A stretch of 64,000 nt of DNA from Proteinivorax tanatarense (GTDB taxonomy: Bacteria > Bacillota > Proteinivoracia > Proteinivoracales > Proteinivoracaceae). The DNA is taken from positions 1,612,001 to 1,676,000 of the forward strand of contig NZ_CP158367.1 in the NCBI RefSeq assembly GCF_040267685.1. The letters run 5' to 3'. Positions 32,179 through 63,445 of the stretch are shown here, piece after piece (position 1 is the stretch's first letter; the number at the start of each line of letters is the position of its first letter). The notes under the pieces are model-generated. The model did not search any database, had not been told where the DNA came from, and saw only the letters and a list, made by a program, of their open reading frames with translations. A program made the position numbers and the translations under genes.

Positions 32179-33771
32179 TTAGCTTCTACCTAATAATTTT
32201 CTAAAAAATTCAATCGACTTCCAAGCTCGGCTTTTAAGTACACTGTTATATTTTTTAAGTACTCTATTATATTTTTTTAATAATTTCCTGTACTCCTTCT
32301 TTAAACTAATATTTTCATATATTAACCTGTCTACCTGTTTTTCAGTTAGATTTGGTCTTATAATTTCAAAACCTAGTTTAACAGGTCTTGAGTACTTTTC
32401 GCAGGTAACATCTTGAACATTTGCTTTTCGAGGAGCAGTATCAGAAATTATCTTATCGAACTCTTCTAGGTTATTTTTCTTTCCTGATACAATAATTTGA
32501 ACACTTCCGTTTTCTATATTCTGCACAAAACCATTTAACTGAAGTGCCCCAGCTTTTTTTACTACCCAATTTCTGTAACCAACCCTTTGTACTTTTCCAC
32601 ATATGGTATACTTAAAAGCATTATAATTCAATTTAGGGGCCGATGGGATTCCCACCTCTTTTATCAAGTTATTCTCTAATGGCTTAAGTACACTTTTAAA
32701 ATCAAAATAGCTATTATTTATTTTTTTGTTATTAACTGTTTCTGGAAAATAATAATCTATAATTGCAGAAGGTACATCTTGTGCAGTTCCTGACTCTGGA
32801 AATGTATGCATGCTAATTTGAGCTTTTGAGTTAATCTCTAATACATATCCTATATCACTTTTTAAGTCTGCCACAATGTCAACAGCCCCTTGGTGTAACC
32901 CCGGCACAGCATTAATAGCATCTACAGCAAGTTTTTTAACATTTTCTGTAAGTTCCGATGTTATCTCTGTCGGCTCCCCTCCTGAAGAAACGTTACTCTT
33001 CTCTCTTAGGTTTATTCTTTCTCCTTTTTCGGGAATATACGATAAAGTTATATTTGTCTTTTTCAAATGTTTTTTTAAATCTCTATCTATTTTAATTAGT
33101 CTACCATGGGTATAAGGATTTTGCTTTCGTTTTTTATTTTTTTCGGCAATCAACTGTTTGACTGTTAATTTTCCATCTCCGCAAACAAACGCAGGCACTC
33201 TAGTAACTGCTCCAACAACTTTATCACCAATAACATATATGCGATAATCGCTTCCCTGAACATATTGCTCAACAATGATGTCCTCTACTTTTAAATTATC
33301 TGTTAATGTTGTAATAGCTTCAACAAGCTCCTCGTTGTTAGTGATATTAGTAAAAACTCCCCTTCCAGCACTACTGTCTACGGGTTTAACAACTAGTGGA
33401 TAGGGAGTGTTTTTTAATTGTTGTAGAATTGATTCTAGGCTATCATTTTTATTAAATTTATATCCCATTGGGATACAAACGTTTCCCTTTTTCAAGTATT
33501 TTTTTGTTAATGCCTTATCTAAACAGATATTAGTAGCTTCTTTAGTAACTTTGCCTCCTCGTGACACTGCAAATTCATATTTTTTTTCACCGTTACTTAT
33601 TGTGTACCTTACTCTCCTTTTTCCATCAATATAAATATTATAGAATTTCACCTTTAAACCTCTACGCCAAGCTTCTAAAGCAATCGTATACATACACAAT
33701 TTGTATCCATATGCCTCTTTAGGAATGGAATTTTCTAAATTCGGCAACCATTTTCTTTCATTATTTTCCAT
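32179..33771 (-). CDS. ATP-grasp ligase fused to an acylphosphatase domain
   Basis: A 530-residue protein. Residues 85-345 are an ATP-grasp domain of the cyanophycin-synthetase type: V-V-K-P-V-D-S-S-A-G-R-G-V at 127-139, V-E-Q-Y-V-Q-G, R-V-P-A-F-V-C-G-D-G-K-L-T-V at 191-204 and metal site L-E-I-N-S at 311-315. Residues 387-472 are an acylphosphatase with both catalytic residues: Arg400 in R-V-G-Y-R and Asn418 in F-V-Q-N. Residues 480-520 are a basic coiled coil. ATP-grasp enzymes join a carboxylate to an amine through an acyl phosphate; the attached acylphosphatase could hydrolyse that intermediate or be a binding module. It is the outermost gene of the teichoic-acid-like module. Substrate unknown. 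Confidence 0.85.
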   Translation of the reverse strand: MENNERKWLPNLENSIPKEAYGYKLCMYTIALEAWRRGLKVKFYNIYIDGKRRVRYTISNGEKKYEFAVSRGGKVTKEATNICLDKALTKKYLKKGNVCIPMGYKFNKNDSLESILQQLKNTPYPLVVKPVDSSAGRGVFTNITNNEELVEAITTLTDNLKVEDIIVEQYVQGSDYRIYVIGDKVVGAVTRVPAFVCGDGKLTVKQLIAEKNKKRKQNPYTHGRLIKIDRDLKKHLKKTNITLSYIPEKGERINLREKSNVSSGGEPTEITSELTENVKKLAVDAINAVPGLHQGAVDIVADLKSDIGYVLEINSKAQISMHTFPESGTAQDVPSAIIDYYFPETVNNKKINNSYFDFKSVLKPLENNLIKEVGIPSAPKLNYNAFKYTICGKVQRVGYRNWVVKKAGALQLNGFVQNIENGSVQIIVSGKKNNLEEFDKIISDTAPRKANVQDVTCEKYSRPVKLGFEIIRPNLTEKQVDRLIYENISLKKEYRKLLKKYNRVLKKYNSVLKSRAWKSIEFFRKLLGRS

Positions 33772-34298: not shown

Positions 34299-35558
34299 CT
34301 ACCCTTTTGTACTCTGGTAGTTGCCTTGTTGTGATTTGAGTTTGTACTGTATGTGGGCGTTTTTAAGAATCGTATTTATTATTTTTTGGCAACTTTTTCC
34401 TTCATCATACATCATAGCTTTTTGTTTTATTTGCTGCCTTTGCACTTTATAACTATCTTCTTTTAATTGTTCATCAATAGCATCTAGTGTTTCTGCTAGA
34501 TTTCTAGTTATTGGTCCTGCTGCTAGTTGCTCTAGGCTAAAGAAAAATCCTCTGTCGCTATTTTTATACATATCAAAATCATATGCAAAGTGGATTATTG
34601 GTCGGTCTAGCAGTAAATATTCTAGATAACAACTAGAGTAGTCAGTTATTAGCATATCGCTAATTAGCAAAAGTTCTTGGGTTTCTTCATCACTGTCAAT
34701 GATATAAGTGAACTGATTGTTAGATTGGTTGTTCTTTTTACATTTGTCTTTAAAGTGTTTTTTTTCTATGATAATTGTATCATTACTTGATAATATTTTT
34801 TGTAGGTTTTGCTTGCATCGATGATCTATATCCCCAAAACTGAAGGTTTTTTGCTCCCTAAATGTAGGTAGATATAATACTATTTTTTTGTCTTGTGGAA
34901 TATTATATTTGAAAAAGTATTTATGTTTTAAAGACTGCTTAAATTGCTCTGTATTTTTTGTTAACAAAAAGTCATTTTTAGGCTGTCCACTTAGGATAAT
35001 CCGCTCTGCTGTAATTCCGTTGTTTTGAAATGTATAGAGCATTTTTTGAGTATTAAGGTCTGAAGATGAAATAAAGTAATGGTATTGTTCGAAACTGCCA
35101 CTCCCTAAAAGGTAGTAGAACTTGCTTGCAGGTGACATTTTTTTGGAAGCAAGGGTATTTTTCAGCCCAAATCCGTGCCACAGCTGAACAATAGTAGCCC
35201 CTTTAAGCAGATTTAACGTTGATATATCTCGATATGTGTTGCAAATAAAAGCATAACTTGAGGTTAGGCTATAGTAGAGACATTTGGGTGTGTTGTATTG
35301 CACAAAGTTTATGTTTGGATGATCTAGGATTGGACTATCTCTTAAATGTTTACGACCGCACCAAATTATTTCGTAGTCATCATTATCCTTTATATACTCT
35401 AAGAAAAAGCGGGAATTGTCCGCTATTTTGTGACCACTCCAGGAGCCTAAAATTACTCTATTGGTTTTTCTTTTTGAAAAGCCGCTGAGGTTGTAGAATA
35501 TTGTGTTTACAATGGCACTAGTTAGTATAGCGACTTCTTTTATTGCTTTTTTAAACAT
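34299..35558 (-). CDS. CDP-glycerol glycerophosphotransferase family protein (TagB/TagF-like)
   Basis: About 419 residues from an ATG at 35558 that follows AAAGGAG; a longer frame from a GTG at 35654 adds 32 residues without a good ribosome site. The family (PF04464) is shown by G-S-W-S-G-H-K-I-A-D-N-S-R, V-Q-L-W-H-G-F-G-L-K, S-G-Q-P-K-N-D-F and L-I-T-D-Y-S-S-C-Y-L-E-Y-L-L-L-D-R-P-I. It would add glycerol-phosphate or a similar polyol-phosphate to a lipid-linked acceptor at the inner membrane face. A basic N-terminal segment and helix may mediate membrane binding. It lies directly after a second member of the family. Confidence 0.9.
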   Translation of the reverse strand: MFKKAIKEVAILTSAIVNTIFYNLSGFSKRKTNRVILGSWSGHKIADNSRFFLEYIKDNDDYEIIWCGRKHLRDSPILDHPNINFVQYNTPKCLYYSLTSSYAFICNTYRDISTLNLLKGATIVQLWHGFGLKNTLASKKMSPASKFYYLLGSGSFEQYHYFISSSDLNTQKMLYTFQNNGITAERIILSGQPKNDFLLTKNTEQFKQSLKHKYFFKYNIPQDKKIVLYLPTFREQKTFSFGDIDHRCKQNLQKILSSNDTIIIEKKHFKDKCKKNNQSNNQFTYIIDSDEETQELLLISDMLITDYSSCYLEYLLLDRPIIHFAYDFDMYKNSDRGFFFSLEQLAAGPITRNLAETLDAIDEQLKEDSYKVQRQQIKQKAMMYDEGKSCQKIINTILKNAHIQYKLKSQQGNYQSTKG

Positions 35559-35654
35559 TTTCACTGGCTCCTTTCGTGGATTGAGCAATAGTTGAGCACG
35601 TGGCGTAAGGTCAAGGGCAAAATTATAATTGACAATGGGTTTCCACTTTTCCAC

Positions 35655-36905
35655 TTACAAGAAATTTTCCTTAATATAGTGCCATAGCCGTTGGGATGAA
35701 TTCCCGTCGGCATAATTGAAAAATTGTCTTTGCATTTTTAACCTTTCTTCCTTAAACTGATCTTTTTCGTTAAGCGTTTTGTGGATTTCTCTTTGTAATT
35801 GTTCTTGAGAATATACTTTGGCACCAGGAGTTGTTTTATCATAATCTAAGAGCAGTGCTCTTTCTCCATCTATATATTCCTTGCTATCGTAAGGGTAGAA
35901 CACTATTGGCTTGTTTAACAATAGATAATCAAGATATATTGAGGAGTAATCGGTTATTAGCAGATCTGTTATTGCTAAAAGAGGATAAATATCAGCATAT
36001 TTATCATACTCTATTATGTTTTCTAAGTTTTTTGTTTGTAGGTTACATTGATGTTTATAGTGCAGTTTTAATATAAATTTTATATTGTACTTTTTGACAA
36101 ACTCATTAAGCTTATCCAAGTCTAGCTGATATAGATCATTTTGATGCTTTCTCCAAGTTGGAGTGTATGTGACTAACTTATAGCCCTCTTCTTTATATCT
36201 TTTGTATTTCTCTATGGAGGATCCATCATAGGTTAACCCTCGTTTTAGAAAATTTTCATTGAAAAATATGTCGTTTCTAGGAAGGCCATTTACTAGCATA
36301 TCTTTATAGTTAAATGCCTTCCCCCTAGTTTGAACTTGATAATCCGAGCTAAGAGCTACTAAGTCGTAACATATACTTTCTTTTCTTACAGCTTTATGAA
36401 GTTTAGATAGTTTTTGATAGGTTGGTTTTAAAAGGCCGATTGTTTTTAAACCTGTACCGTGCCAGATTTGAACTTTTTTGGCTTTTATTAGAAAAAAAGG
36501 TTTAAACCGACTAGCCCACTCATTGCCATCTACGATTACCACTTTTACTGTTAAAAGTTTAAATAAAGTCGAAATTTTAGGGTACTTCCATACCTTAAGA
36601 TTGTTTTGATTCAACTTATCAAATACTTTTCCTTTATCTGTCAAAAATATAAACTCAGTTTCCTGATGTTCAAGATCATTCAAGTATAGAAAAAGGTATT
36701 TAAGATTTCCTTCAAAATCGCCGAACCTACTAGTTAGAACAACTTGGTTTTTTTTGGGGACAATCAATGAAAAAGGAGCTATGAAAACATAGCCAATTAT
36801 ATTTAGCAAAACTTTCAGGGTTATTTTTATGATTTGCCTAGCAGTTTTATATACTTTTAAAATCGCTGCGTTGTGTTTTAATGTTCTTTTCAACTTTCGA
36901 AACAT
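35655..36905 (-). CDS. CDP-glycerol glycerophosphotransferase family protein (TagB/TagF-like)
   Basis: A 416-residue member of PF04464: [32 protein letters not shown] and [20 protein letters not shown]. The N-terminal 45 residues include a basic amphipathic stretch and a hydrophobic helix, as in TagF-type enzymes that sit on the membrane. Together with the adjacent homologue it may split the work as primase (TagB-like) and polymerase (TagF-like). No CDP-glycerol synthase (TagD) is in the window, so the activated polyol may come from elsewhere or be a different one. Confidence 0.9.
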
Positions 36906-36998: not shown

Positions 36999-39809
36999 TT
37001 AAGTTGTTTGTGAGTTTTTACTTTTTTTTGTGCTTACATACTCTGCAAGACATAAACTTCCTACTACTTTTTCTATGACGTTTATCGATGAACCTTTTAG
37101 CGGAAAATGGAATGTCGATATTGAAGGGGTGGTGTCAATTGTCGAGATGGCCCACTTTTGTTCTTTAGCCGACCTTTTTGGATCAGGAATTATCATTTTA
37201 ACAACGCCATATTTCAAACCGGGTATAGCTTTGACCGCTTCCACTGCATGTTCTTTAAATTCTTTGTGTAGCAAATTATCTATGTTAACTGTTTCTCCAC
37301 CAAGTTGATAGCTAACGTCATCTTCTAAAACAACTCTCTTACCTCTTTCCAAAACATCGCCTGAATTTATACCTAGCATAGTAAAAGTATCTGTCAAGGT
37401 ATCAATTTCAATAGCCTGGTCCACATACACTGGATTCTTAGCTCTAGATACATTTTTTTGCTCTATCAGTTCCCTCACAGTAGAAACTCCATCGCCAATT
37501 ATAGCAGTTGGCTCTTTGATTATTGAACCTATAGCCTCGCCTGCTGCTACCATAATATTAACATCCCAACCTTTAGTTAATTGTTCAAGGTATATATACT
37601 TTACTCCTTTAGACTTAGCTTGTTTTAATGATTTCTTTAACTCTTTAACACAATTAACTTTATTAGGTTCTAGTTCAGTAATATTAACACTACTGATGAT
37701 ACACGAGGCATAAGCATCAAAGTATTTTAGTATATTCTCTTTCTGGTTAACTTTAAACTTTGTTCCTCGAGGTGTTGGCAAACAATGATTCGTAATAATT
37801 TTTTTAAAAAGAAACTTGTTATTACACGCATCATCACTAAACATCGAACTAAATCTCATGGAGCTAACTCCTGTTAATTCATCCTTTTTAAATTTAATCA
37901 AATTACCAGAATAGAAGTTAACCTCAAAGCCTAGACGTGTTAATTCTTTAAAAAAGAGGTGTTGATCTAAGTCTAGCTCGCTATTTTCTAACCAGCTATC
38001 AACTTTATGCTCAACATAATCAAACCCTCTTGTTTCTAAATCTGCTTTAGAGTCTAATAACTCTCCTCTTTGCTGCGCATCTTTATTAATAATTTTTTGT
38101 TCATCTATTACTTCACCTTGTGGTCCTTTGTAACACCATAGCTTGTTTAAAAAGAAATCTATATGATGCTTGCGACCAGACACAATTACATCCGTATGCG
38201 AACGCGAGTTGTCTACTTTTAGGTTAACTAACAATTCATTAGCAATGTTGTTTGCCCAATCTTCAAAAGAACAATCTAACTTTAGAGGTAGACGAACTAG
38301 TTTTTCAACGGCTAAATAGCAATTATCATCAGTTTTTTCTGGAAAAAGATAGTTTAATAATGGCTTGGCTATATTGGTCGGCTTGCCATAGATAGGATAA
38401 TGAGGTCCACCAAAAGAAGCTCTAGAGTTTGCCTCTAAAATACAACATTTTTGCTTCGAACGAGGCAAATCTATTCTTTGAGCCAATATATCAATTCCCC
38501 AATAGTCATTTATTCCAAAGGAATTAGCCGCCTCTTCTGCAAGTTGCATCAAATCAGGGTGAATTTGCTCAGTTATAACGATGCCATCTGCGCCCGCTCC
38601 TACATTAGCTTTAAGATGTAAAAATACTAGTTCCCCACTCTTGGGGATAGTTGTTAAAGAATGTCCTTGTTTTGATAGAAAGCTTTCGGTGTAATCACTT
38701 GCTATAATTGGCGTCCTGCTAAAGCGAGGATTTTTAGTTCTCTCTTGATTTTTTTCATTAATCAAGTCTGCTACTGTTTTTTTGCCATCCCCCATAACGT
38801 TTGCAGGGACACGTAAAAGAGCAGCTTTAGCAACGCCGCCAATAACTATGACTCTAATATCTACTCCCTCAATAAGCTCTTCCAAAATAATACTTTCATG
38901 TCTATTTTTTGCATAGTCCCAGGCAACCTCAAGCTCTTCTTCAGTACGAACATCTACAGTTATTCCGAAGCCTGAAGATCCTTCTACAGGTTTAACTACC
39001 AGCGGATACGTGCATTGGTTGAGATACTTCTTAGCATCATCTAAGTTCTCAAAAATTCTACCTAAAGGTACTGGCAAACCATTATTGTGTAGAAACTCTT
39101 TTGTTAGATGTTTATTATCTGTAATTGCTCTAACTGTAGTAGATACTTTTGAGTTCAAAGTACTTTGAAAACCTAACGCTTTAATAGGAGAAACAATATA
39201 GTTGCACGTAGCAAAACGCGTAATAAATAAATTCTTCTCTTTAGCAGCTTCATATAGTTCACCAGAAACACTAAAGTTCCCCTCGGGATACTCATTTGCT
39301 TTTTTTACAAGATCCCCTAAATGTTTAATAACTTTTTCATTTAAATTAGCAACTTCTTGAGACCAGTTATTTTGATCATTGATGTTTTCATTTACTTCTA
39401 ATTTTATTGGTTTGTTAAACCAGGTTTCTATTATATTTTCAACTCTAGACCTACTAGTACCTTTCCATGCAAGCTCAACTACTTTTTCTATTGCTTTTCC
39501 GCATCCAATAAGCACTACCTCTATATTTTCTTTATTTTTGTTTCGTATTGCAACCTTAACACCGTTTGAATTTGCCTTACGTCTTAATCTTCCTTTATAG
39601 CCTACACAGGTAATTTTTCCTCTTATCGAAAGCTTAACTGCTGAATTTTTATTACCTGGAACCCTTTTAGTTATCCAATATTTTGCAGGTGATTTTTTAT
39701 ATGGATTTAACCCTAACTCCTTAGTTCCTATTGTTGTACAAAGCATCCAATAATAAAGGAATTTCAGAAATTGCACTATTTTTTTTGGTTTTATTTTTTT
39801 TAATTTCAC
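36999..39809 (-). CDS. Tandem ATP-grasp protein with degenerate acylphosphatase-like domains
   Basis: A 936-residue protein, unusual for the family. Residues 58-140 are acylphosphatase-like (G-K-I-T-C-V-G-Y-K), but the catalytic Arg is Lys72. Residues 220-490 are a complete ATP-grasp: V-V-K-P-V-E-G-S-S-G-F-G at 271-282, R-V-P-A-N-V-M-G-D-G-K-K-T-V, metal site L-E-A-N-S at 458-462. Residues 505-562 look like a second acylphosphatase without its Arg loop. Residues 610-925 are a second ATP-grasp that keeps the shape (I-G-D-G-V-S-T-V) but has lost the Lys-Pro loop (I-I-S-S-V-N) and the metal ligands (S-T-I-D-T-T), so it is probably inactive and structural. GTG start. It lies between the TagF-like genes and the 553-residue ATP-grasp gene. 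Substrate unknown. Confidence 0.82.
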   Translation of the reverse strand: MKLKKIKPKKIVQFLKFLYYWMLCTTIGTKELGLNPYKKSPAKYWITKRVPGNKNSAVKLSIRGKITCVGYKGRLRRKANSNGVKVAIRNKNKENIEVVLIGCGKAIEKVVELAWKGTSRSRVENIIETWFNKPIKLEVNENINDQNNWSQEVANLNEKVIKHLGDLVKKANEYPEGNFSVSGELYEAAKEKNLFITRFATCNYIVSPIKALGFQSTLNSKVSTTVRAITDNKHLTKEFLHNNGLPVPLGRIFENLDDAKKYLNQCTYPLVVKPVEGSSGFGITVDVRTEEELEVAWDYAKNRHESIILEELIEGVDIRVIVIGGVAKAALLRVPANVMGDGKKTVADLINEKNQERTKNPRFSRTPIIASDYTESFLSKQGHSLTTIPKSGELVFLHLKANVGAGADGIVITEQIHPDLMQLAEEAANSFGINDYWGIDILAQRIDLPRSKQKCCILEANSRASFGGPHYPIYGKPTNIAKPLLNYLFPEKTDDNCYLAVEKLVRLPLKLDCSFEDWANNIANELLVNLKVDNSRSHTDVIVSGRKHHIDFFLNKLWCYKGPQGEVIDEQKIINKDAQQRGELLDSKADLETRGFDYVEHKVDSWLENSELDLDQHLFFKELTRLGFEVNFYSGNLIKFKKDELTGVSSMRFSSMFSDDACNNKFLFKKIITNHCLPTPRGTKFKVNQKENILKYFDAYASCIISSVNITELEPNKVNCVKELKKSLKQAKSKGVKYIYLEQLTKGWDVNIMVAAGEAIGSIIKEPTAIIGDGVSTVRELIEQKNVSRAKNPVYVDQAIEIDTLTDTFTMLGINSGDVLERGKRVVLEDDVSYQLGGETVNIDNLLHKEFKEHAVEAVKAIPGLKYGVVKMIIPDPKRSAKEQKWAISTIDTTPSISTFHFPLKGSSINVIEKVVGSLCLAEYVSTKKSKNSQTT

Positions 39810-39871: not shown

Positions 39872-41533
39872 TTATCTGATAATCCTAAACCCATTATCTT
39901 TATAATTTTCTCCCCATTTAACAGTTATTGATTTAACTTTTGCTTTTTTAGGGCCTATATAACACTCTCTAACAAGCCATTCTATATCTAAAGCTCTGCC
40001 TTTTAAAACAGCTGTTACAGTTCTATCATGATTATTCTGTACCCATCCACTTACCTTTAGAGATTTTGCCTTTGTCTGCAGCCAGTTTCTGTAACCTACA
40101 TTTTGTACTTGACCACTAACCGTTAACTCTATTGTCTTTTCATTTTTTAAAATAAACCAACTTAATGCTTTTTTAAAAGTAGAACCTTCATATAAATCAA
40201 TCTTACCTTGGCCAAATTGTCCCTCACCAATAACACCATTGTATAACACTTGTAAAGCTTTGTCAGCATGGTTTGCCATAGCTTGTCCTGTTTTTGTCTG
40301 GCCTATGGTTTTCCCATGTGCTCTTTGAATAAAGCAAATTCCTGCTTGATTGTTACCCTCTAAAAGAACAGGTCCTTTATCTGTTATTACAATATCCCAA
40401 CCAACTACTAATCTATATGGGAAGTTCTTATGAACATCTTTTACTAGAGAAAGGGCCTCTGCCCAATAAGGAATCTTCACACCTCTTATTTCTAAATCGT
40501 CACTTAACTTATCCATCCTTGTATTAGAAACAGATACGTCCGAATGAATAGCTGGGCCTAACGTTCCAGTGTTCATGTTTATAGGGGCTACCATCCCCCC
40601 TGCACTAGCATTATCAACAACTGAATTGGTATCAATAGAAAATCTAAGCATGGCCTGGTCTAGCTCAATATGCCCAGCTTCATCTACATAAGAAAGCACC
40701 CTGATTGTTGGAGTAGCATTTTTTCTAAACACCGCCAACTTAGGGTGAGGTAAAATGAGTGGCTGAACTAATATTGATCCGCTCTTATGGTTTTGGGCTA
40801 AGTTTTTTAAATAAGCTTTCAGCTGATTTTTCGATAAAGTATCCCCTTGTGGATTTTGGTAGCGCCCATTTACCCAGTTCCAGATCTCTGCTCCCTGCCC
40901 CTCGTTGTCTATATTAGGCTTGCAGAACAAACTTTCTTCCGGCAATTCTTTATTTATATACTTACTATGATGTGCGATTATAGTCCCATCAGATAGGATC
41001 TCCTGAATTATAGGCACAACAGGAACTTTATTGTTGATGCAAAAATTAGAAAACTCCACTTTTTTTCCCAGCGAAACCACTTCATATTGATTATTTATAT
41101 ATTGTCCATATTTAGTCAATATTTTATAGGTTCCATTTTTTATGGCCCCTTTATTTACAAAATATCTAGCCTTCTGTAGTCCCTCTTTTGCGTAAAACTC
41201 TTGTAGATAATAATTCTCGGCATTAATCGAATAGAAGAAAGAGAGATAAAATTGCTCCATATATTGTCTTACCGCTGTTTTTTCACTTTTTAAGGTTTTT
41301 ATATCTACTTTCTTTGACCATTTGTTAATGTCTTTTAAAATAAATAAAGGCGAAAGTAAAAAATATATTACTACCTTAAGTCGACTTTTTAACGTTCTGC
41401 AGTGCTGCCAATAGCATACTGCGTAGGTGCGATGAATAATGTCTGCAGCATTTTTAGGCCGTCTTAGCAAGGAAAAGACAAGCAAGTTCGGTAACATATT
41501 AGGTCTTTTATTCTTTGTGCGTTTTTTTCCCAT
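39872..41533 (-). CDS. Sugar-transfer-associated ATP-grasp protein with C-terminal acylphosphatase
   Basis: A 553-residue protein. A basic N-terminus with one hydrophobic helix (residues 52-66) is followed by an ATP-grasp of the sugar-transfer-associated type (PF14397), about 120-435: F-C-K-P-N-I-D-N-E-G-Q-G-A at 203-215, T-I-R-V-L-S-Y, S-A-G-G-M-V-A-P-I-N and metal site L-L-E-G-N-N-Q-A-G at 390-398. Residues 466-553 are an acylphosphatase with both catalytic residues, Arg482 in N-V-G-Y-R and Asn500 in W-V-Q-N. This ATP-grasp family is a different branch from the cyanophycin-type one in the neighbours, so acylphosphatase domains were joined to two kinds of ligase in one locus. Probably adds an amino acid or other amine or acid to the exported polymer. 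Confidence 0.85.
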   Translation of the reverse strand: MGKKRTKNKRPNMLPNLLVFSLLRRPKNAADIIHRTYAVCYWQHCRTLKSRLKVVIYFLLSPLFILKDINKWSKKVDIKTLKSEKTAVRQYMEQFYLSFFYSINAENYYLQEFYAKEGLQKARYFVNKGAIKNGTYKILTKYGQYINNQYEVVSLGKKVEFSNFCINNKVPVVPIIQEILSDGTIIAHHSKYINKELPEESLFCKPNIDNEGQGAEIWNWVNGRYQNPQGDTLSKNQLKAYLKNLAQNHKSGSILVQPLILPHPKLAVFRKNATPTIRVLSYVDEAGHIELDQAMLRFSIDTNSVVDNASAGGMVAPINMNTGTLGPAIHSDVSVSNTRMDKLSDDLEIRGVKIPYWAEALSLVKDVHKNFPYRLVVGWDIVITDKGPVLLEGNNQAGICFIQRAHGKTIGQTKTGQAMANHADKALQVLYNGVIGEGQFGQGKIDLYEGSTFKKALSWFILKNEKTIELTVSGQVQNVGYRNWLQTKAKSLKVSGWVQNNHDRTVTAVLKGRALDIEWLVRECYIGPKKAKVKSITVKWGENYKDNGFRIIR

Positions 41534-41581: not shown

Positions 41582-42361
41582 CTATTGAGCGTTAATTATT
41601 TCTAGTTCTGATGGAGTGTCCATTTCGCTCCAACTATTTAATTTTACTTCAATTAAATCAACCTGGAAATCTGACTTAATCACATTTAAAATATTATGCC
41701 AATGATATTTCTTCAGCGTAGTCTTGTTATCCATAAGCAGACGATCCATCTTCTTTAGCAGCACTTTCTTGCTATCGGCACCTTTAACACAAAAAACACC
41801 CGCTGATTTAACACTAGTATCGTTATGATGTATATGTTTTCCAACTTCTATAAAATTGTGTTGGTTATCTAACAGTACTTTCATATCATCATTTTCCAAC
41901 TCATTAGTTTTACTAGTACATAAACCTGCAACTAAATTTTCTATTGTTTGTTTTTCATCAAACCATAGACCTAGCTGTTTTGTTAAAGACTCATCTACTA
42001 TAGTATCGCCATTTACAACAACAACATTTTCACTTTTTGATTGTAGCAAGCCTAGCCACAATGAAATAAGAGGACCGGCAGTATTGTAAAATGGATTGTA
42101 AATACAATTGTTTTCTAGGTTTAGTTTTTTTACTTCTTCATGGACCTTATCTGCCCCGTGACCTATAACTGGTATAACATGCAATCTAACGTTGAGGGTA
42201 CTAAAGGCTTTAACTATATGACCAAAAATACTTATTCCATCGTCGCATCGAAGCAGACTCTTAGGACGATCGATAGTAAGTGGTCGCATCCTTCGTCCTT
42301 CACCAGCCATTAACACTATTAGATCTAGATTTTTCTTGTTTTGTCCCTTGATTTTACCCAT
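41582..42361 (-). CDS. Sugar-phosphate/polyol-phosphate nucleotidyltransferase
   Basis: A 259-residue NTP transferase. The signature is V-L-M-A-G-E-G-R-R-M-R-P-L-T at about 16-29, then R-P-K-S-L-L and V-V-N-G-D-T-I for metal. It is smaller than GalU and closer to LicC- and GlmU-N-type enzymes, which make CDP- or UDP-activated groups. In this locus it could supply the activated unit for the TagF-like transferases. The nucleotide and substrate cannot be read from sequence. It lies 48 bases before the ATP-grasp gene and 33 bases after the ABC ATPase gene. Confidence 0.85.
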   Translation of the reverse strand: MGKIKGQNKKNLDLIVLMAGEGRRMRPLTIDRPKSLLRCDDGISIFGHIVKAFSTLNVRLHVIPVIGHGADKVHEEVKKLNLENNCIYNPFYNTAGPLISLWLGLLQSKSENVVVVNGDTIVDESLTKQLGLWFDEKQTIENLVAGLCTSKTNELENDDMKVLLDNQHNFIEVGKHIHHNDTSVKSAGVFCVKGADSKKVLLKKMDRLLMDNKTTLKKYHWHNILNVIKSDFQVDLIEVKLNSWSEMDTPSELEIINAQ

Positions 42362-42394
42362 AAAGAACCCTCCTGTTAGTTCCTAATCATTGGT

Positions 42395-43876
42395 TTAGCT
42401 TTTTTTGCCTTGGTTTACATGCGCTGTATATCTCTCAACAGCTTCTTTAGGACTTCCGTCAAACATAAGATTACCTTTATTTATCCAAATAGCCCTTGTA
42501 CATATTTTTTCTACAAACTTCATGTTATGAGTAACGACAATAACAGCTTTTGCGTCAGTAATCATCTCTTGAATTCTTTCGCTAGCTTTTGCTCTAAATT
42601 CCATATCCCCGGCGCTTAAAGCTTCATCAATTATAAAAAGTTCCGGCTGAACAGCAGCTGCGATACTAAAACCTAGCCTAGATCTCATGCCACTGGAATA
42701 ATGTTTTACAGGCTTATTTATGTGTTTTTCCAAATTGGCAAACTCAATAATTTCATCTCTTAGTTGAAAAATTTCTTCCTTTGATATTCCCATCATCATC
42801 CCGCTTAAGATAATATTATCCATTCCTGTTAGATGTCTGTTAAAACCTGCTCCTATACTTAAAAGAGCTGTGGTGGCTCCTTCTGTATAAAGACTTCCTT
42901 CATCGGGGCGATAAATACCACTTATAGTTCGGCATAATGTGGTTTTCCCTGCACCATTATGACCTATAACACCAAGTATATCTCCTTCTCTTACTTTAAA
43001 GCTAACATCTTTTAACGACCAAAAATCCTTTTTTCCTATTTTAAATTTAATGCTCAAATTTTTAGCAACTACAACTTTGTTTTCCTTCACAGCACTTTGA
43101 GTTTCTTTTAATTCTACAACTTTTTTCTTCTTTTTTCTTTTGGGAACAGACTCCCGATACTTTTTCGCCACTTCTTCTGGATGACCTTCAGCAGCAATTA
43201 CACCACTATCAATCCAAATTGCTCTGGTGCAGTTTTTTTTAATAAACTTAATGTTATGGCTTACAATGATCACCATTTTTGCTCGTGAAACAAGATCTTT
43301 AATTTTTTTTGAAGCCCGTTTGGCAAACTCTAGGTCGCCAGTGTTAAGAGCCTCATCCAAAACTAATGTCTCAGGGTTAAGCATTGCCGCAATGCTAAAC
43401 CCTAACCGCGCTCTCATTCCACTAGAATAATTTTTAATAGGTTGATGTATAAAATCACCTAGCCCAGAAAACTCAAGAATTTCTTGATAGAATTCTTTTA
43501 CTTCTGACCTTGCCATCCCCATCATCATTCCATTAAGGTATATATTGTCTTTACCTGAAAGCTGTCTATTAAATCCAGCACCCATAGATAATAGGGCAGA
43601 CACCTTGCCATCTACTTTTATAGTACCCTTATCAGGTTTTAGAATTTCCGCAATAGTTTTACAAAGGGTTGATTTACCTGCACCATTTGAACCAATTATC
43701 CCTAAAACTTCACCTTTATATCCATTAAAACTGATATCTTTTAACGCCCAAAAATCTTTATTTGATTTGTCACCGGTTAAAAGATCATAACTTAGAGTTC
43801 TGATATCTTCTCTTTTGAGTCTAGAATCATATTTTACTCCTATATTTTTTGCTTCTATAACAATATCTTGTTTCAT
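42395..43876 (-). CDS. Polymer-export ABC ATPase with two nucleotide-binding domains (TagH-like)
   Basis: A 493-residue protein made of two similar TagH/Wzt-type ATPase domains. Domain 1 has Walker A G-S-N-G-A-G-K-S-T at 62-70, signature Y-S-S-G-M-R-A-R-L at 150-158 and Walker B L-V-L-D-E-A at 171-176. Domain 2 has G-H-N-G-A-G-K-T-T at 305-313, Y-S-S-G-M-R-S-R-L at 393-401 and F-I-I-D-E-A at 414-419. A lysine-rich linker (245-253) joins them. TagH and Wzt normally have one domain and work as dimers, so this is a fused dimer. All catalytic motifs look intact in both halves. It pairs with the permease encoded 14 bases upstream. Confidence 0.93.
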   Translation of the reverse strand: MKQDIVIEAKNIGVKYDSRLKREDIRTLSYDLLTGDKSNKDFWALKDISFNGYKGEVLGIIGSNGAGKSTLCKTIAEILKPDKGTIKVDGKVSALLSMGAGFNRQLSGKDNIYLNGMMMGMARSEVKEFYQEILEFSGLGDFIHQPIKNYSSGMRARLGFSIAAMLNPETLVLDEALNTGDLEFAKRASKKIKDLVSRAKMVIIVSHNIKFIKKNCTRAIWIDSGVIAAEGHPEEVAKKYRESVPKRKKKKKVVELKETQSAVKENKVVVAKNLSIKFKIGKKDFWSLKDVSFKVREGDILGVIGHNGAGKTTLCRTISGIYRPDEGSLYTEGATTALLSIGAGFNRHLTGMDNIILSGMMMGISKEEIFQLRDEIIEFANLEKHINKPVKHYSSGMRSRLGFSIAAAVQPELFIIDEALSAGDMEFRAKASERIQEMITDAKAVIVVTHNMKFVEKICTRAIWINKGNLMFDGSPKEAVERYTAHVNQGKKS

Positions 43877-43890
43877 TTATCACACCTCAG

Positions 43891-44667
43891 TTAAAGGACC
43901 TTAATAATCTTGTGCTCATTCTTATTATAAAAATAAAGCATAAAAACTATAACAGCAATAGAACCCAATGCTAAAGCAATAAGCTGCGAAAAATTAGGCA
44001 GTTGCCCATACATCAAAACATTCCTATAGGCATTTAACAAATGGGAAAAAGGATTTACATCGCTTATCCATTGGTACTCAGCAGGTAACCTTCCTACTTC
44101 CCAAATTACAGGAGAAGCATATCTCATTATGCGCATAAGGTGAGTTATGATGTTTTCTATATCTCGTATAAAAACACAAACATAACCCATAAATAAAGAT
44201 ATTGCAATATGAAATAACAACTGAACTAGCACAATAAATGGTAGCCAGACAACTTCTGTGCCTGGAATAATACCGTAAAAAAGTAGAAAAACTGCTATAA
44301 CAACTAGTCCAAATAGAAAGTTTATTAACTGAGTTATACTCTCGCCTATTGGCAATATAGCTTTGGGCAGATAAACCTGAGTTATAATACCCGATTTTGA
44401 TGAAATAGATTTAGCTGAACCGCTAACCGTAGACTTAAACCAGCGAAAAACCACTAATCCTATTACTAAAAAAGCTGGGTAGTCCGGTCCACCTCTTTCT
44501 AAAACAATTACTACTAAAAAGTAATAAACAAATACGCTTAAAAGAGGATCTAAAAGCCACCAAAAATATCCCAAAAATGTATTTCTATGTTTTGACTTTA
44601 ATCCAGAAATAATAAGATAGTAGAGTAAATCTTTTCTTTTACATATTGCTTCTATATATTTTTTCAT
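43891..44667 (-). CDS. ABC-2 type polymer export permease (TagG-like)
   Basis: A 258-residue membrane protein with six hydrophobic segments, of the TagG/Wzm/KpsM type. It opens with an amphipathic region (I-C-K-R-K-D-L-L-Y-Y-L), followed by F-L-G-Y-F-W-W-L-L-D-P-L-L-S and the late V-N-P-F-S-H-L-L-N-A-Y-R-N element. It would export the finished lipid-linked polymer as a dimer energised by the two-domain ATPase. It is the first gene of the leftward module. Confidence 0.92.
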   Translation of the reverse strand: MKKYIEAICKRKDLLYYLIISGLKSKHRNTFLGYFWWLLDPLLSVFVYYFLVVIVLERGGPDYPAFLVIGLVVFRWFKSTVSGSAKSISSKSGIITQVYLPKAILPIGESITQLINFLFGLVVIAVFLLFYGIIPGTEVVWLPFIVLVQLLFHIAISLFMGYVCVFIRDIENIITHLMRIMRYASPVIWEVGRLPAEYQWISDVNPFSHLLNAYRNVLMYGQLPNFSQLIALALGSIAVIVFMLYFYNKNEHKIIKVL

Positions 44668-60772: not shown

Positions 60773-63445
60773 TTAATCCCTATAATAAACTGGTATATCA
60801 AACCTTAACTGATAGTTGTCTATCTGGTCATAAAGGTTTTTGATGAAGCTTATCTGTTTTACCGACCATCCTACATCTGTTGCATACTGATGTCTGGCAG
60901 GACTTGCTGGATTCCATTTCATCTTATAAAGTGTATCTTGTCTCCTAATAGGATGATTGACATATCTTAATGAAATCCATTCTGCACCTCCTATAACTGC
61001 CTTTTCAGGTGTATCCCAGCCTTGTCGATAAGCGTATTTTGCTCCTTCATTTATAGGATCCCTGTCAAAGGCTCTAATACCATACATATTATAAACTTTT
61101 ACAGTATCTTCTAGCATTTCAATATCATCAACTTCTTTTTCTGTATAAAGTTCTCCATCTTTTTTGCCTACAATTACCCCTTGCGCTAACTTAGATGAAC
61201 CATTTCCTGTTTCGTGTAATGCATGGGCCACAATATAAATTTCATTTATGTTGTGCTTTTTCCCAGCTTCAATAAAGGCTTTACCAGTATTGTGTAGTGT
61301 GCCTTTGTTTTCAAGAATTCTATTTAAGTCATTACTGTTTGTTCCAGATGATCCAGATAAAACCAAAAATTGAAACATCTCTCTTGGAACTTCCTTAGTT
61401 GACTTAACATGCCCTCCTGAAACCCAACCTGTAACTTCGTCAGTTGTTATTTTATACCAACCATTTTGGATTTGCTCTACTACAAAAACTTCATTGCGTG
61501 AAACTCTATCTATTATGTCACTATCAGTCGTCGGAGCTTTCCTTACATTTAAAACACTGGCGGTCACCTTAATTGTTTCTAATATGTAAGGATTGCTTTT
61601 TATAGGAGGAACTACTACCAAGTCACCCCTGACCCATCCATTTATGTCCGCTCCATGTATCTCATACCAGATATATCCATCATTTGCAAAGGTTTTATCT
61701 GTAATTGTATAATTTTCATTCCGTCGCACTCTAGCAACCCTAGGACTATTGGTATTGGGCCTTTCTCTTACATTTAGAATATCAGTGTTAACTGTTAACG
61801 TATCATTAATTGTTTTTTTATAATCTTTTTCAAAGGGTATAAAGTTATTCGTATTAAGATATTTTTTAATTTCTTCCATTGAAGCAGGTTTATTAAAGTC
61901 ATAGTAACTAACATTTCCACCATGATTTTTTTGTAAATCCAATGCTTGCTCCATTGTTAAGTTATAATAAGAATAATGGAAGAAATTATGTTGTTTAGAT
62001 ATAACATTTATTACTTCCTCAGCAACAGCTTCTGATATGGCATTATTACCTCCGATAATAAATGGTGTACCTTGAACCTCAAAAATATAGGATAAAATGT
62101 TTGAATTTATTTGATTTTGTCGAGCTAACAAAATCGGCTTCCCGGTCTGCGCCGCTAATACTGAACTGGCCAAGGCATCGGGAAAATCTTCCCCAGTTGC
62201 AACGACCACACCGTTATAGTAACCTGTGTCAAATTCCTTAGCTATCTCTAAAGAGGTTTCATAGCGGTCAGCTCCTGATATCCTATTTATTGTTACCCCC
62301 TCATTTTCAAGTTGTGTAACAACACTTTTAGAAACAGCATTTTCTCCACCTACAATTACGACATTTTTTACGTCCCACTTGGCAATCGCCTCATTTGTAG
62401 TATCGCGAAGGTGGTCTTTTGGGGTAAATAGTATAGGAACACTTTTTTTTGCAGCAACTGGTGCTATTGATAGTGCATCAGGATAGTTATTTCCCGTAGC
62501 GAGAATTATGGTATCTTCTTGGTTTTCTTTTCTTAATTCATTACCGATTTCTATAGCTGTTTCATACCTATCTCTACCACTTAATATAGTAACTTGGTAC
62601 CCTAAGGATTTAAGTTGTTTATCTACTGTAGAAGAAACAGCATTTTCACCACCTAGGATGTAAATATGATTTACACCTAACCTCTTTAATTCTTGTTTAG
62701 TCGCATCATGTAAAGAATCTTTGCCTGTTAACAAAATCGGTGCATTCATTTGATATGCCAGCGGGGCTCCAGCTAGTGCATCTGGAAAATCTTCTCCACT
62801 TGCTAATACTGCTATATCCGCTCCTAATGGCCAACCTTCTTTACTAACTTCCACAGCAGTAGTGTAGCGACAAGGACCAGATATTCTAAATTCTGATTCT
62901 TCAAAGTCAGAAAAGGCAACTATTTCATTGTACTGGTTCGTAGTGCTTGGAAATGAGTAGTCGCTTATTACCTGCTCTTCCTTTTCGATTGCATCTTCTT
63001 CGGTTGCATCTTCTTCAGTTGCATCTTCTTCAGTTGCATCTTCTTCGGTTGCATCTTCTTCGGTTGCATCTTCTTCGGTTGCACCTTCTTCAGTTGCATC
63101 TTCTTCAGCTGCATCTTCTTCGGTTGCATCTTCTTCGGTTGCATCTTCTTCGGTTGCATCTTCTTCGGTTGCATCTTCTTCGGTTGCATCTTCTTCGGTT
63201 GCATCTTCTTCGGTTGCATCTTCTTCGGTTGCATCTTCTTCGGTTGCATCTTCTTCAGCTGCATCTTCTTCAGCTGCATCTTCTGTTACAATCTTTTCGT
63301 CAGGTGCATTTTCAATAGAAAAGTTATTTTTGTTAGCCTCTATATAGCTTTTTTCTTCGTTGTCATGTGCTAAAGTTGGTAAAGAAAAAGAAAAAACCAT
63401 AACAATAGCTAGCATAAGGGCAAAAAATTTCCGTGCTTTTCTCAT
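60773..63445 (-). CDS. Secreted autolysin: acidic repeat, three CWB2, two SH3, glucosaminidase
   Basis: An 890-residue surface hydrolase. Residues 1-26 are a signal peptide; about 52-160 is an E-E-D-A-T repeat; about 190-480 are three CWB2 repeats (F-P-D-A-L-A-G, Y-I-L-G-G-E-N-A type); about 548-620 and 625-690 are SH3b domains (L-N-V-R-E-R-P-N-T and L-N-V-R-K-A-P-T-T); about 700-885 is a LytD/LytG-type N-acetylglucosaminidase with H-A-L-H-E-T-G around the catalytic Glu. It would cut wall glycan while anchored to the wall polymer. GGGGGG ribosome site, sigma-H-type promoter at 63502. Confidence 0.93.
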   Translation of the reverse strand: MRKARKFFALMLAIVMVFSFSLPTLAHDNEEKSYIEANKNNFSIENAPDEKIVTEDAAEEDAAEEDATEEDATEEDATEEDATEEDATEEDATEEDATEEDATEEDATEEDAAEEDATEEGATEEDATEEDATEEDATEEDATEEDATEEDAIEKEEQVISDYSFPSTTNQYNEIVAFSDFEESEFRISGPCRYTTAVEVSKEGWPLGADIAVLASGEDFPDALAGAPLAYQMNAPILLTGKDSLHDATKQELKRLGVNHIYILGGENAVSSTVDKQLKSLGYQVTILSGRDRYETAIEIGNELRKENQEDTIILATGNNYPDALSIAPVAAKKSVPILFTPKDHLRDTTNEAIAKWDVKNVVIVGGENAVSKSVVTQLENEGVTINRISGADRYETSLEIAKEFDTGYYNGVVVATGEDFPDALASSVLAAQTGKPILLARQNQINSNILSYIFEVQGTPFIIGGNNAISEAVAEEVINVISKQHNFFHYSYYNLTMEQALDLQKNHGGNVSYYDFNKPASMEEIKKYLNTNNFIPFEKDYKKTINDTLTVNTDILNVRERPNTNSPRVARVRRNENYTITDKTFANDGYIWYEIHGADINGWVRGDLVVVPPIKSNPYILETIKVTASVLNVRKAPTTDSDIIDRVSRNEVFVVEQIQNGWYKITTDEVTGWVSGGHVKSTKEVPREMFQFLVLSGSSGTNSNDLNRILENKGTLHNTGKAFIEAGKKHNINEIYIVAHALHETGNGSSKLAQGVIVGKKDGELYTEKEVDDIEMLEDTVKVYNMYGIRAFDRDPINEGAKYAYRQGWDTPEKAVIGGAEWISLRYVNHPIRRQDTLYKMKWNPASPARHQYATDVGWSVKQISFIKNLYDQIDNYQLRFDIPVYYRD
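62986..63285 (-). repeat. 20-copy 15-base repeat coding for E-E-D-A-T
   Basis: Twenty units of 15 bases without gaps (plus-strand unit CGGTTGCATCTTCTT), varying at only a few positions (C-A-G-T-T, C-A-G-C-T, one C-A-C-C). Because the unit has no stop in any frame, long false frames appear on both strands. In frame it codes for a strongly acidic low-complexity segment between signal peptide and wall-binding domains. Copy number can change by slippage. Confidence 0.95.

Follow-up and report, generated by a model that had tools for sequence, protein, structure and literature searches.

The window analysed here, a 64,000-nucleotide stretch of Proteinivorax tanatarense DNA, encodes a 936-residue protein in which an intact ATP-grasp domain is followed by a second one that appears to have lost its catalytic residues, raising the question of what such a second domain could be for. 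We give an even chance to the reading that the protein is a carboxylate-amine (peptide-bond) ligase belonging to a cell-surface polymer locus, with the non-catalytic second ATP-grasp acting as a partner or platform. Its reading frame has a GGGGG run just 5' of the start codon, and its domains follow in the order acylphosphatase-like (AcyP1), ATP-grasp 1, degenerate acylphosphatase-like (AcyP2) and ATP-grasp 2, located as follows.

Positions 36999-39809, minus strand: the fused protein, 936 residues (GTG start, open reading frame confirmed).
Positions 39396-39653, minus strand: acylphosphatase-like domain 1 (AcyP1), residues 53-138, with Lys72 at the Arg position (PF00708, 1.3e-10; 14 of 14 copies match).
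Positions 38325-39272, minus strand: intact ATP-grasp domain 1, residues 180-495 (Pfam, PDB search, alignments).
Positions 38961-38993, minus strand: ATP loop of domain 1, residues 273-283, with K273-P274, G280 and G282 (kept in 14 of 14).
Positions 38427-38435, minus strand: metal site E459-x-N461 of domain 1 (kept in 14 of 14).
Positions 38094-38324, minus strand: degenerate acylphosphatase-like domain 2 (AcyP2), residues 496-572 (member scans, PDB profile search; strand-helix order in models).
Positions 37035-37994, minus strand: pseudo-ATP-grasp domain 2, residues 606-925 (profile alignment, model, residue counts).
Positions 37671-37700, minus strand: lost ATP loop of domain 2, residues 704-713 (residue comparison).
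Positions 37134-37142, minus strand: lost metal site of domain 2, T890-I-D892 (residue comparison).

Above the cut-off, Pfam places an acylphosphatase at residues 59-134 and ATP-grasp models in the first half only. Searching the PDB with the whole protein (phmmer) retrieves cyanophycin synthetases, CphA2 and GshAB, with the best stretch at residues 204-493 (E 4e-42); the same structures come up for the second half alone (best 4.3e-13), and a profile built from 13 second domains hits GshAB (2.2e-26) and TeCphA1 (2.3e-23). The two ATP-grasps are homologous from end to end (hhalign E 1.3e-50), and the second half aligns with CphA-like proteins at 5.2e-43. The AlphaFold model of the full protein is of moderate confidence (mean pLDDT 66.9, pTM 0.52) and says nothing firm on domain packing. 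In this model, residues 611-925 superpose on residues 162-484 of TeCphA1 (7wae) with a Z-score of 27.4 and an rmsd of 2.9 over 308 residues, and a separate model of the second half gives Z-scores of 21.5 against GshAB and about 20 against CphA1, the halves being compared structurally through common templates only. Domain 2 is predicted to have an ATP-grasp fold of the cyanophycin-synthetase type, and the first-pass annotation, which had aligned it with the first domain along its whole length, is borne out on this point.

A contig search with the single protein as query matched no relative, and an alignment query over the contigs of named genomes gave seven loci, L035-L037 (from MAGs titled Bacillota bacterium) and four short matches in Methylococcales. 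Among 199 relatives and 398 genomes of the phylum, full-length relatives occur only in the window's own genome (G000), G001, G008 and G369, while 97 genomes of the class of G369 contain strong matches in four, G369, G414, G417 and G460. Since the match positions in the last three agree with those in L037, L035 and L036, respectively, these are probably identical MAGs. In total there are 14 family copies in 7 genomes of one phylum, and the second domain is complete in 13 copies. Tandem copies are frequent, with two each in G001, G008, G369 and L037 and three each in L035 and L036, and the window's genome has one. Two of the three L036 copies are cut by contig ends; the truncated third copy does not enter any domain 2 count, and a 172-residue fragment at the L036 edge enters no count at all. 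For three copies, two of them in L035 and one in L037, we chose an inner start. For comparison, 22 of the 27 loci L004-L030 passed a frame filter as CphA-like, a label that rests on similarity, and nine of the 22 were used in the tree and the joint alignment.

Twelve alignment columns were classed by us as catalytic. Seven of them follow PMC9427784 and correspond to K220, K261, R309, R323, N394, D431 and E450 in TeCphA1 numbering; the other five are our own assignment. K220 and K261 are described in PMC9427784 as ligands of the ATP phosphates and D431 and E450 as those of magnesium; R309 and R323 point towards the polymer carboxylate and the aspartate, the latter also being held by N394. Both against the 22 CphA-like proteins and in the joint alignment, all 14 first domains have the complete set (K233, K273, P274, G280, G282, E310, R319, R333, N402, D440, E459 and N461). 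The first ATP-grasp had been described as complete from its VVKPVEGSSGFG loop (K273) and its LEANS motif (E459, N461), and both are indeed present. Judged by these residues, domain 1 would be an active ligase.

The picture for the second domains is the reverse. Only the equivalent of E310 (E742) is kept in 13/13, and each of the other 11 columns is kept in at most two: the first Lys in 2/13, each Arg and the metal-site Asn in 1/13, and the remaining catalytic columns in none. The window's copy counts among the two with the first Lys in the joint alignment, but not in the alignment against the 22 CphA-like proteins. At the K273 position all 13 carry Ser or Thr, at D440 His, Gln, Asn or Lys, at E459 Lys or Arg in seven, and at N461 Asp or Glu in 12. 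The reported replacements of the ATP loop by CIISSVN (S706-S707) and of the metal site by STIDTT (T890, D892) read as claimed, and checking the listed residues in relatives extends this pattern to the whole family; an intact second site was found in none of the 13 complete second domains. Over the 36 columns conserved in both CphA-like proteins and domain 1, domain 2 keeps 1/12 of the catalytic ones against 12/24 of the others (p 0.025, with classes assigned afterwards). A loss of ATP and metal binding in domain 2 is well supported by these residue comparisons. The positions of TeCphA1 N394, R323 and R458, which hold the incoming amino acid according to PMC9427784, are lost as well, making it unlikely that domain 2 holds a substrate in the ancestral style.

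All second domains fall into a single clade of the tree (support 100/100), which argues for a single, ancestral and maintained loss; the clade has a stem of 1.78 changes per column and longer branches than domain 1. Being both family-wide and ancestral, the loss makes the sequence observation stronger than the first-pass annotation could tell. We had expected an internal duplication, with domains 1 and 2 as sisters; the tree instead groups domain 2 with PGA_cap-linked ATP-grasps (99/94). Constraining domains 1 and 2 together gives a borderline result (p-AU 0.048), and with long branches in play, duplication as well as fusion may account for the second domain.

We then compared constraint between the domains, calling a column nearly invariant at >=12/13, that is, in at least 12 of 13 sequences, and taking module borders from PMC9427784. 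In domain 2, nearly invariant columns make up 6/68 of the lid, 0/19 of the second core piece, 13/72 of the omega module and 13/69 and 24/87 of the other core pieces; the corresponding values in domain 1 are 21/68, 7/19, 27/73, 15/68 and 32/88. The ATP lid and core piece 2 together fall from 28/87 in domain 1 to 6/87 in domain 2, whereas the other two core pieces change from 47/156 to 37/156 (interaction z -2.8). By these counts, the ATP lid is where conservation has relaxed most in domain 2. The omega module is relaxed too, which speaks against a retained ancestral amino-acid site. A conserved core with a decayed ATP lid would fit a partner or platform role, and core conservation alone is to be expected of any folded domain. 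The suggested scaffold or substrate-holding role is plausible as a hypothesis, but substrate holding of the ancestral kind is unlikely, the ancestral contacts having been lost too.

Under the reading that we prefer, the chemistry of domain 1 would most likely be that of its family (PMC9427784), with an acyl phosphate formed on a carboxylate and then joined to an amine. Since the CphA aspartate-site residues are changed in domain 1, aspartate in the CphA pose is probably not that amine. The loss of ATP and metal binding in domain 2 would be a single event in the family ancestor, and the domain would most likely pack against domain 1 like the second G domain in the cyanophycin synthetase dimer, and/or guide the polymer to the single active site as a platform. 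As described for CphA1, the G domains dimerize through the G core, the partner's Glu215 touches the polymer (PMC9427784), and the N domain binds polymer loosely (PMC9262961). A reciprocal dimer contact through Asp659 (13/13) at the Glu215 position was examined: the alignment posterior is 0.88 against CphA, but the residue is one position off, ungapped, against PGA_cap-linked relatives. This register shift against the nearest relatives, together with the helix starts in the model, led us to drop the idea. Domain 1 has Ala, Ser or Thr at the Glu215 position, and such a reciprocal contact would have spoken strongly for a pseudo-dimer.

A further protein mildly favours a use for dead partners. This 692-residue protein of G008 (L085:3701-5776, G008:C20:26200-28275), which is built differently, has two tandem ATP-grasps, the first intact and the second degenerate, the latter lacking its two Lys, its two Arg and most of the loop but retaining an Asp and Asp-x-Asn at the metal site. 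In the tree, its halves fall among PGA_cap-linked proteins and not within the 936-residue family, the placement of the second half being unsure because of its very long branch. A full-length match was found in one of 148 genomes searched, G008 itself. It looks like a separate occurrence of the live-plus-dead ATP-grasp pattern.

Domain 2 does not appear to be decaying freely: 36 of its columns are invariant in 13/13 sequences with identities down to 33%, and eight of these are special to it. These eight (S654, F657, D659, Y795, P877, W886, F900 and C920) are not prevalent in the relatives examined and would also suit a new activity or ligand free of ATP and metal, for instance a sugar, a lipid-linked precursor or an enzyme of the locus. 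CphA1 itself had a hidden third, hydrolytic site in its N domain, according to PMC9262961. As no motif of another enzyme class was recognised in domain 2 and several of the special residues (P, W, F) look structural, such a new function seems to us possible but on the unlikely side. Rather improbable is that domain 2 is a weakly constrained relic, its catalysis made redundant by the fusion, that now only keeps the chain folded. Mean pairwise identity is lower in domain 2 (0.416) than in domain 1 (0.567), with AcyP1 at 0.437 and AcyP2 at 0.328, and the longer branches agree with such a relic, but the invariant columns and the retention of domain 2 in all 13 complete copies count against it. It is very improbable that ATP binding persists in domain 2 in an altered mode through other residues: E742 is invariant at a position that every ATP-grasp compared keeps and the fold is intact, but the metal ligands and the two Lys and two Arg are gone with no consistent substitute, and few parts are less conserved than the ATP lid. 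The ligase activity of domain 1, the partner or platform role of domain 2 and the nature of the polymer are inferred.

The neighbouring genes of the locus are the following.

Positions 41582-44667, minus strand: nucleotidyltransferase (PF12804/PF00483), ABC ATPase (sequence reading) and ABC-2 exporter (PF01061), named by Pfam and reading.
Positions 39872-41533, minus strand: ATPgrasp_ST fused to acylphosphatase, the upstream neighbour, with Arg and Asn kept (Pfam, reading).
Positions 34299-36905, minus strand: two CDP-glycerol glycerophosphotransferase-family proteins, 34299-35654 and 35655-36905 (PF04464).
Positions 32179-33771, minus strand: CphA/RimK-like ATP-grasp fused to acylphosphatase, with Arg and Asn kept (Pfam, NCBIfam comparison, residue reading).

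On the same strand, the order is ABC-2 exporter, ABC ATPase, nucleotidyltransferase, ATPgrasp_ST-acylphosphatase, the 936-residue protein, the two glycerophosphotransferases and the ATP-grasp-acylphosphatase. The window also encodes a UDP-GlcNAc 2-epimerase, two UDP-sugar dehydrogenases and a glycosyltransferase-4-family (WecA/TagO-type) protein, which makes acidic sugars likely building blocks. In G001, where exporter, ATPase and nucleotidyltransferase were named by sequence reading, this gene order is kept from the exporter through the two glycerophosphotransferases, with two tandem family copies and a terminal TupA-like protein. The G008 locus adds PGA_cap fusions and a glutamate racemase (L031:17330-18154), which lies inside the polymer locus and adjoins ATP-grasp genes; one of the fusions, of 1113 residues (L032:283-3624), joins DUF362, a ferredoxin-like domain, PGA_cap and a TupA-like ATP-grasp. 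The G369 locus adds a PEP mutase and a PGA_cap-TupA fusion. Near the G369 copies, L062:1057-3513 encodes a PEP mutase-cytidylyltransferase fusion and, as a further protein, an iron alcohol dehydrogenase, which suggests that the polymer may have a phosphonate or polyol component. From these neighbourhoods in the window, G001, G008 and G369, the polymer is probably of teichoic or capsule type with amide-linked amino acids. PGA_cap occurs in 7/7 family genomes and also in 7/14 control genomes, so that its presence says little. TupA-like proteins occur in 3/7 family genomes and in 3/101 relatives, and two of the latter three belong to the family genomes. A locus of teichuronopeptide type was considered and set aside, as a TupA-like ATP-grasp is absent from the window's genome. 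Elsewhere in the window, positions 62947-63318, inside the open reading frame 60773-63445, are strongly repetitive and open on both strands, with MQLKKMQPKK-type repeats.

The acylphosphatase domains present a more variable picture. AcyP1 matches PF00708 throughout the family and in two neighbours as well (16/16 in all). Of the two columns that we take to be catalytic, the Arg column has Arg in 9/14 copies and the Asn column Asn in 5/14, with both in 2/14; the window's copy has Lys and Asn in an alignment near a gap. The Lys reported in place of Arg is thus correct for the window's protein (K72) but not as a family rule. AcyP2 matches PF00708 in 7 of 14 members (best 7.4e-6), the window's own copy giving no match by itself, and hhalign of AcyP2 against AcyP1 (0.018) is no better than a control pair (0.01). 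Member scans and the PDB profile search settle the kinship, and by these AcyP2 is a real but diverged acylphosphatase relative. An Arg-bearing loop was seen by reading in none of the 14, in agreement with what had been noted for the middle segment. The acylphosphatases fused to the neighbouring ATP-grasps at 32179-33771 and 39872-41533 keep both residues, and the locus is accordingly not devoid of intact copies. The earlier count of three inactive relatives in one chain is an overstatement, since the state of the N-terminal acylphosphatase varies among copies.

In the carbamoyl phosphate synthetase large subunit, two tandem ATP-grasp units on one chain are both catalytic, and the substrates differ from those of the 936-residue family. 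Bifunctional glutathione synthetase (GshF/GshAB) has one ATP-grasp and a gamma-glutamylcysteine ligase, whereas the 936-residue protein has two ATP-grasps, one apparently dead. The two share an ATP-grasp subclass (3ln6, 3ln7). The TupA-like and the sugar-transfer-associated ATP-grasps of surface-polymer loci, which adjoin family genes in several genomes, belong to different Pfam families. Precedents for an ATP-grasp fold with lost sites and without activity are TTLL12 (PMC3520985) and the fish and mollusc C7orf58 (PMC2824669), according to these sources; both are eukaryotic and TTL-like and, unlike the present family, are not fused to an active twin ATP-grasp. A tandem live/dead ATP-grasp architecture with acylphosphatases was not found described in the open-access papers searched. 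The family offers a clean natural example of an enzyme joined to a dead homologue of itself and maintained in seven genomes of one phylum; if the dead half is needed, it would be a tractable system for how a pseudo-enzyme supports a polymer-building ligase.

Also among the closest known systems is cyanophycin synthetase CphA1, whose G domain (e.g. 7wae, 7lg5) has an ATP-grasp fold like both halves, with all ATP and metal residues present in domain 1. CphA1 differs in its C-terminal Mur-ligase domain, which has no match in the 936-residue protein (Pfam, E up to 1), and in having no dead second ATP-grasp. Against the cyanophycin synthetase NCBIfam equivalog, the protein scores 302.6 bits with a cut-off of 850, and the TeCphA1 aspartate-site residues S396, G456 and R458, as given in PMC9427784, are found in 3, 0 and 0 of 14 first domains. 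A bolder reading, which we hold to be a long shot, is that some surface-polymer amino-acid ligases are obligate asymmetric live/dead ATP-grasp pairs, in which the dead half replaces the homodimer partner and holds the polymer, with tandem copies of different specificity. According to PMC3815933, the L-PGA synthetase for teichuronopeptide in Bacillus halodurans is unidentified and might carry an ATP-grasp domain; the 936-residue family would be a candidate of this general kind, and if the asymmetric pair were true, it would supply candidates for the ATP-grasp ligases building peptide-bearing wall polymers such as teichuronopeptide-like ones.
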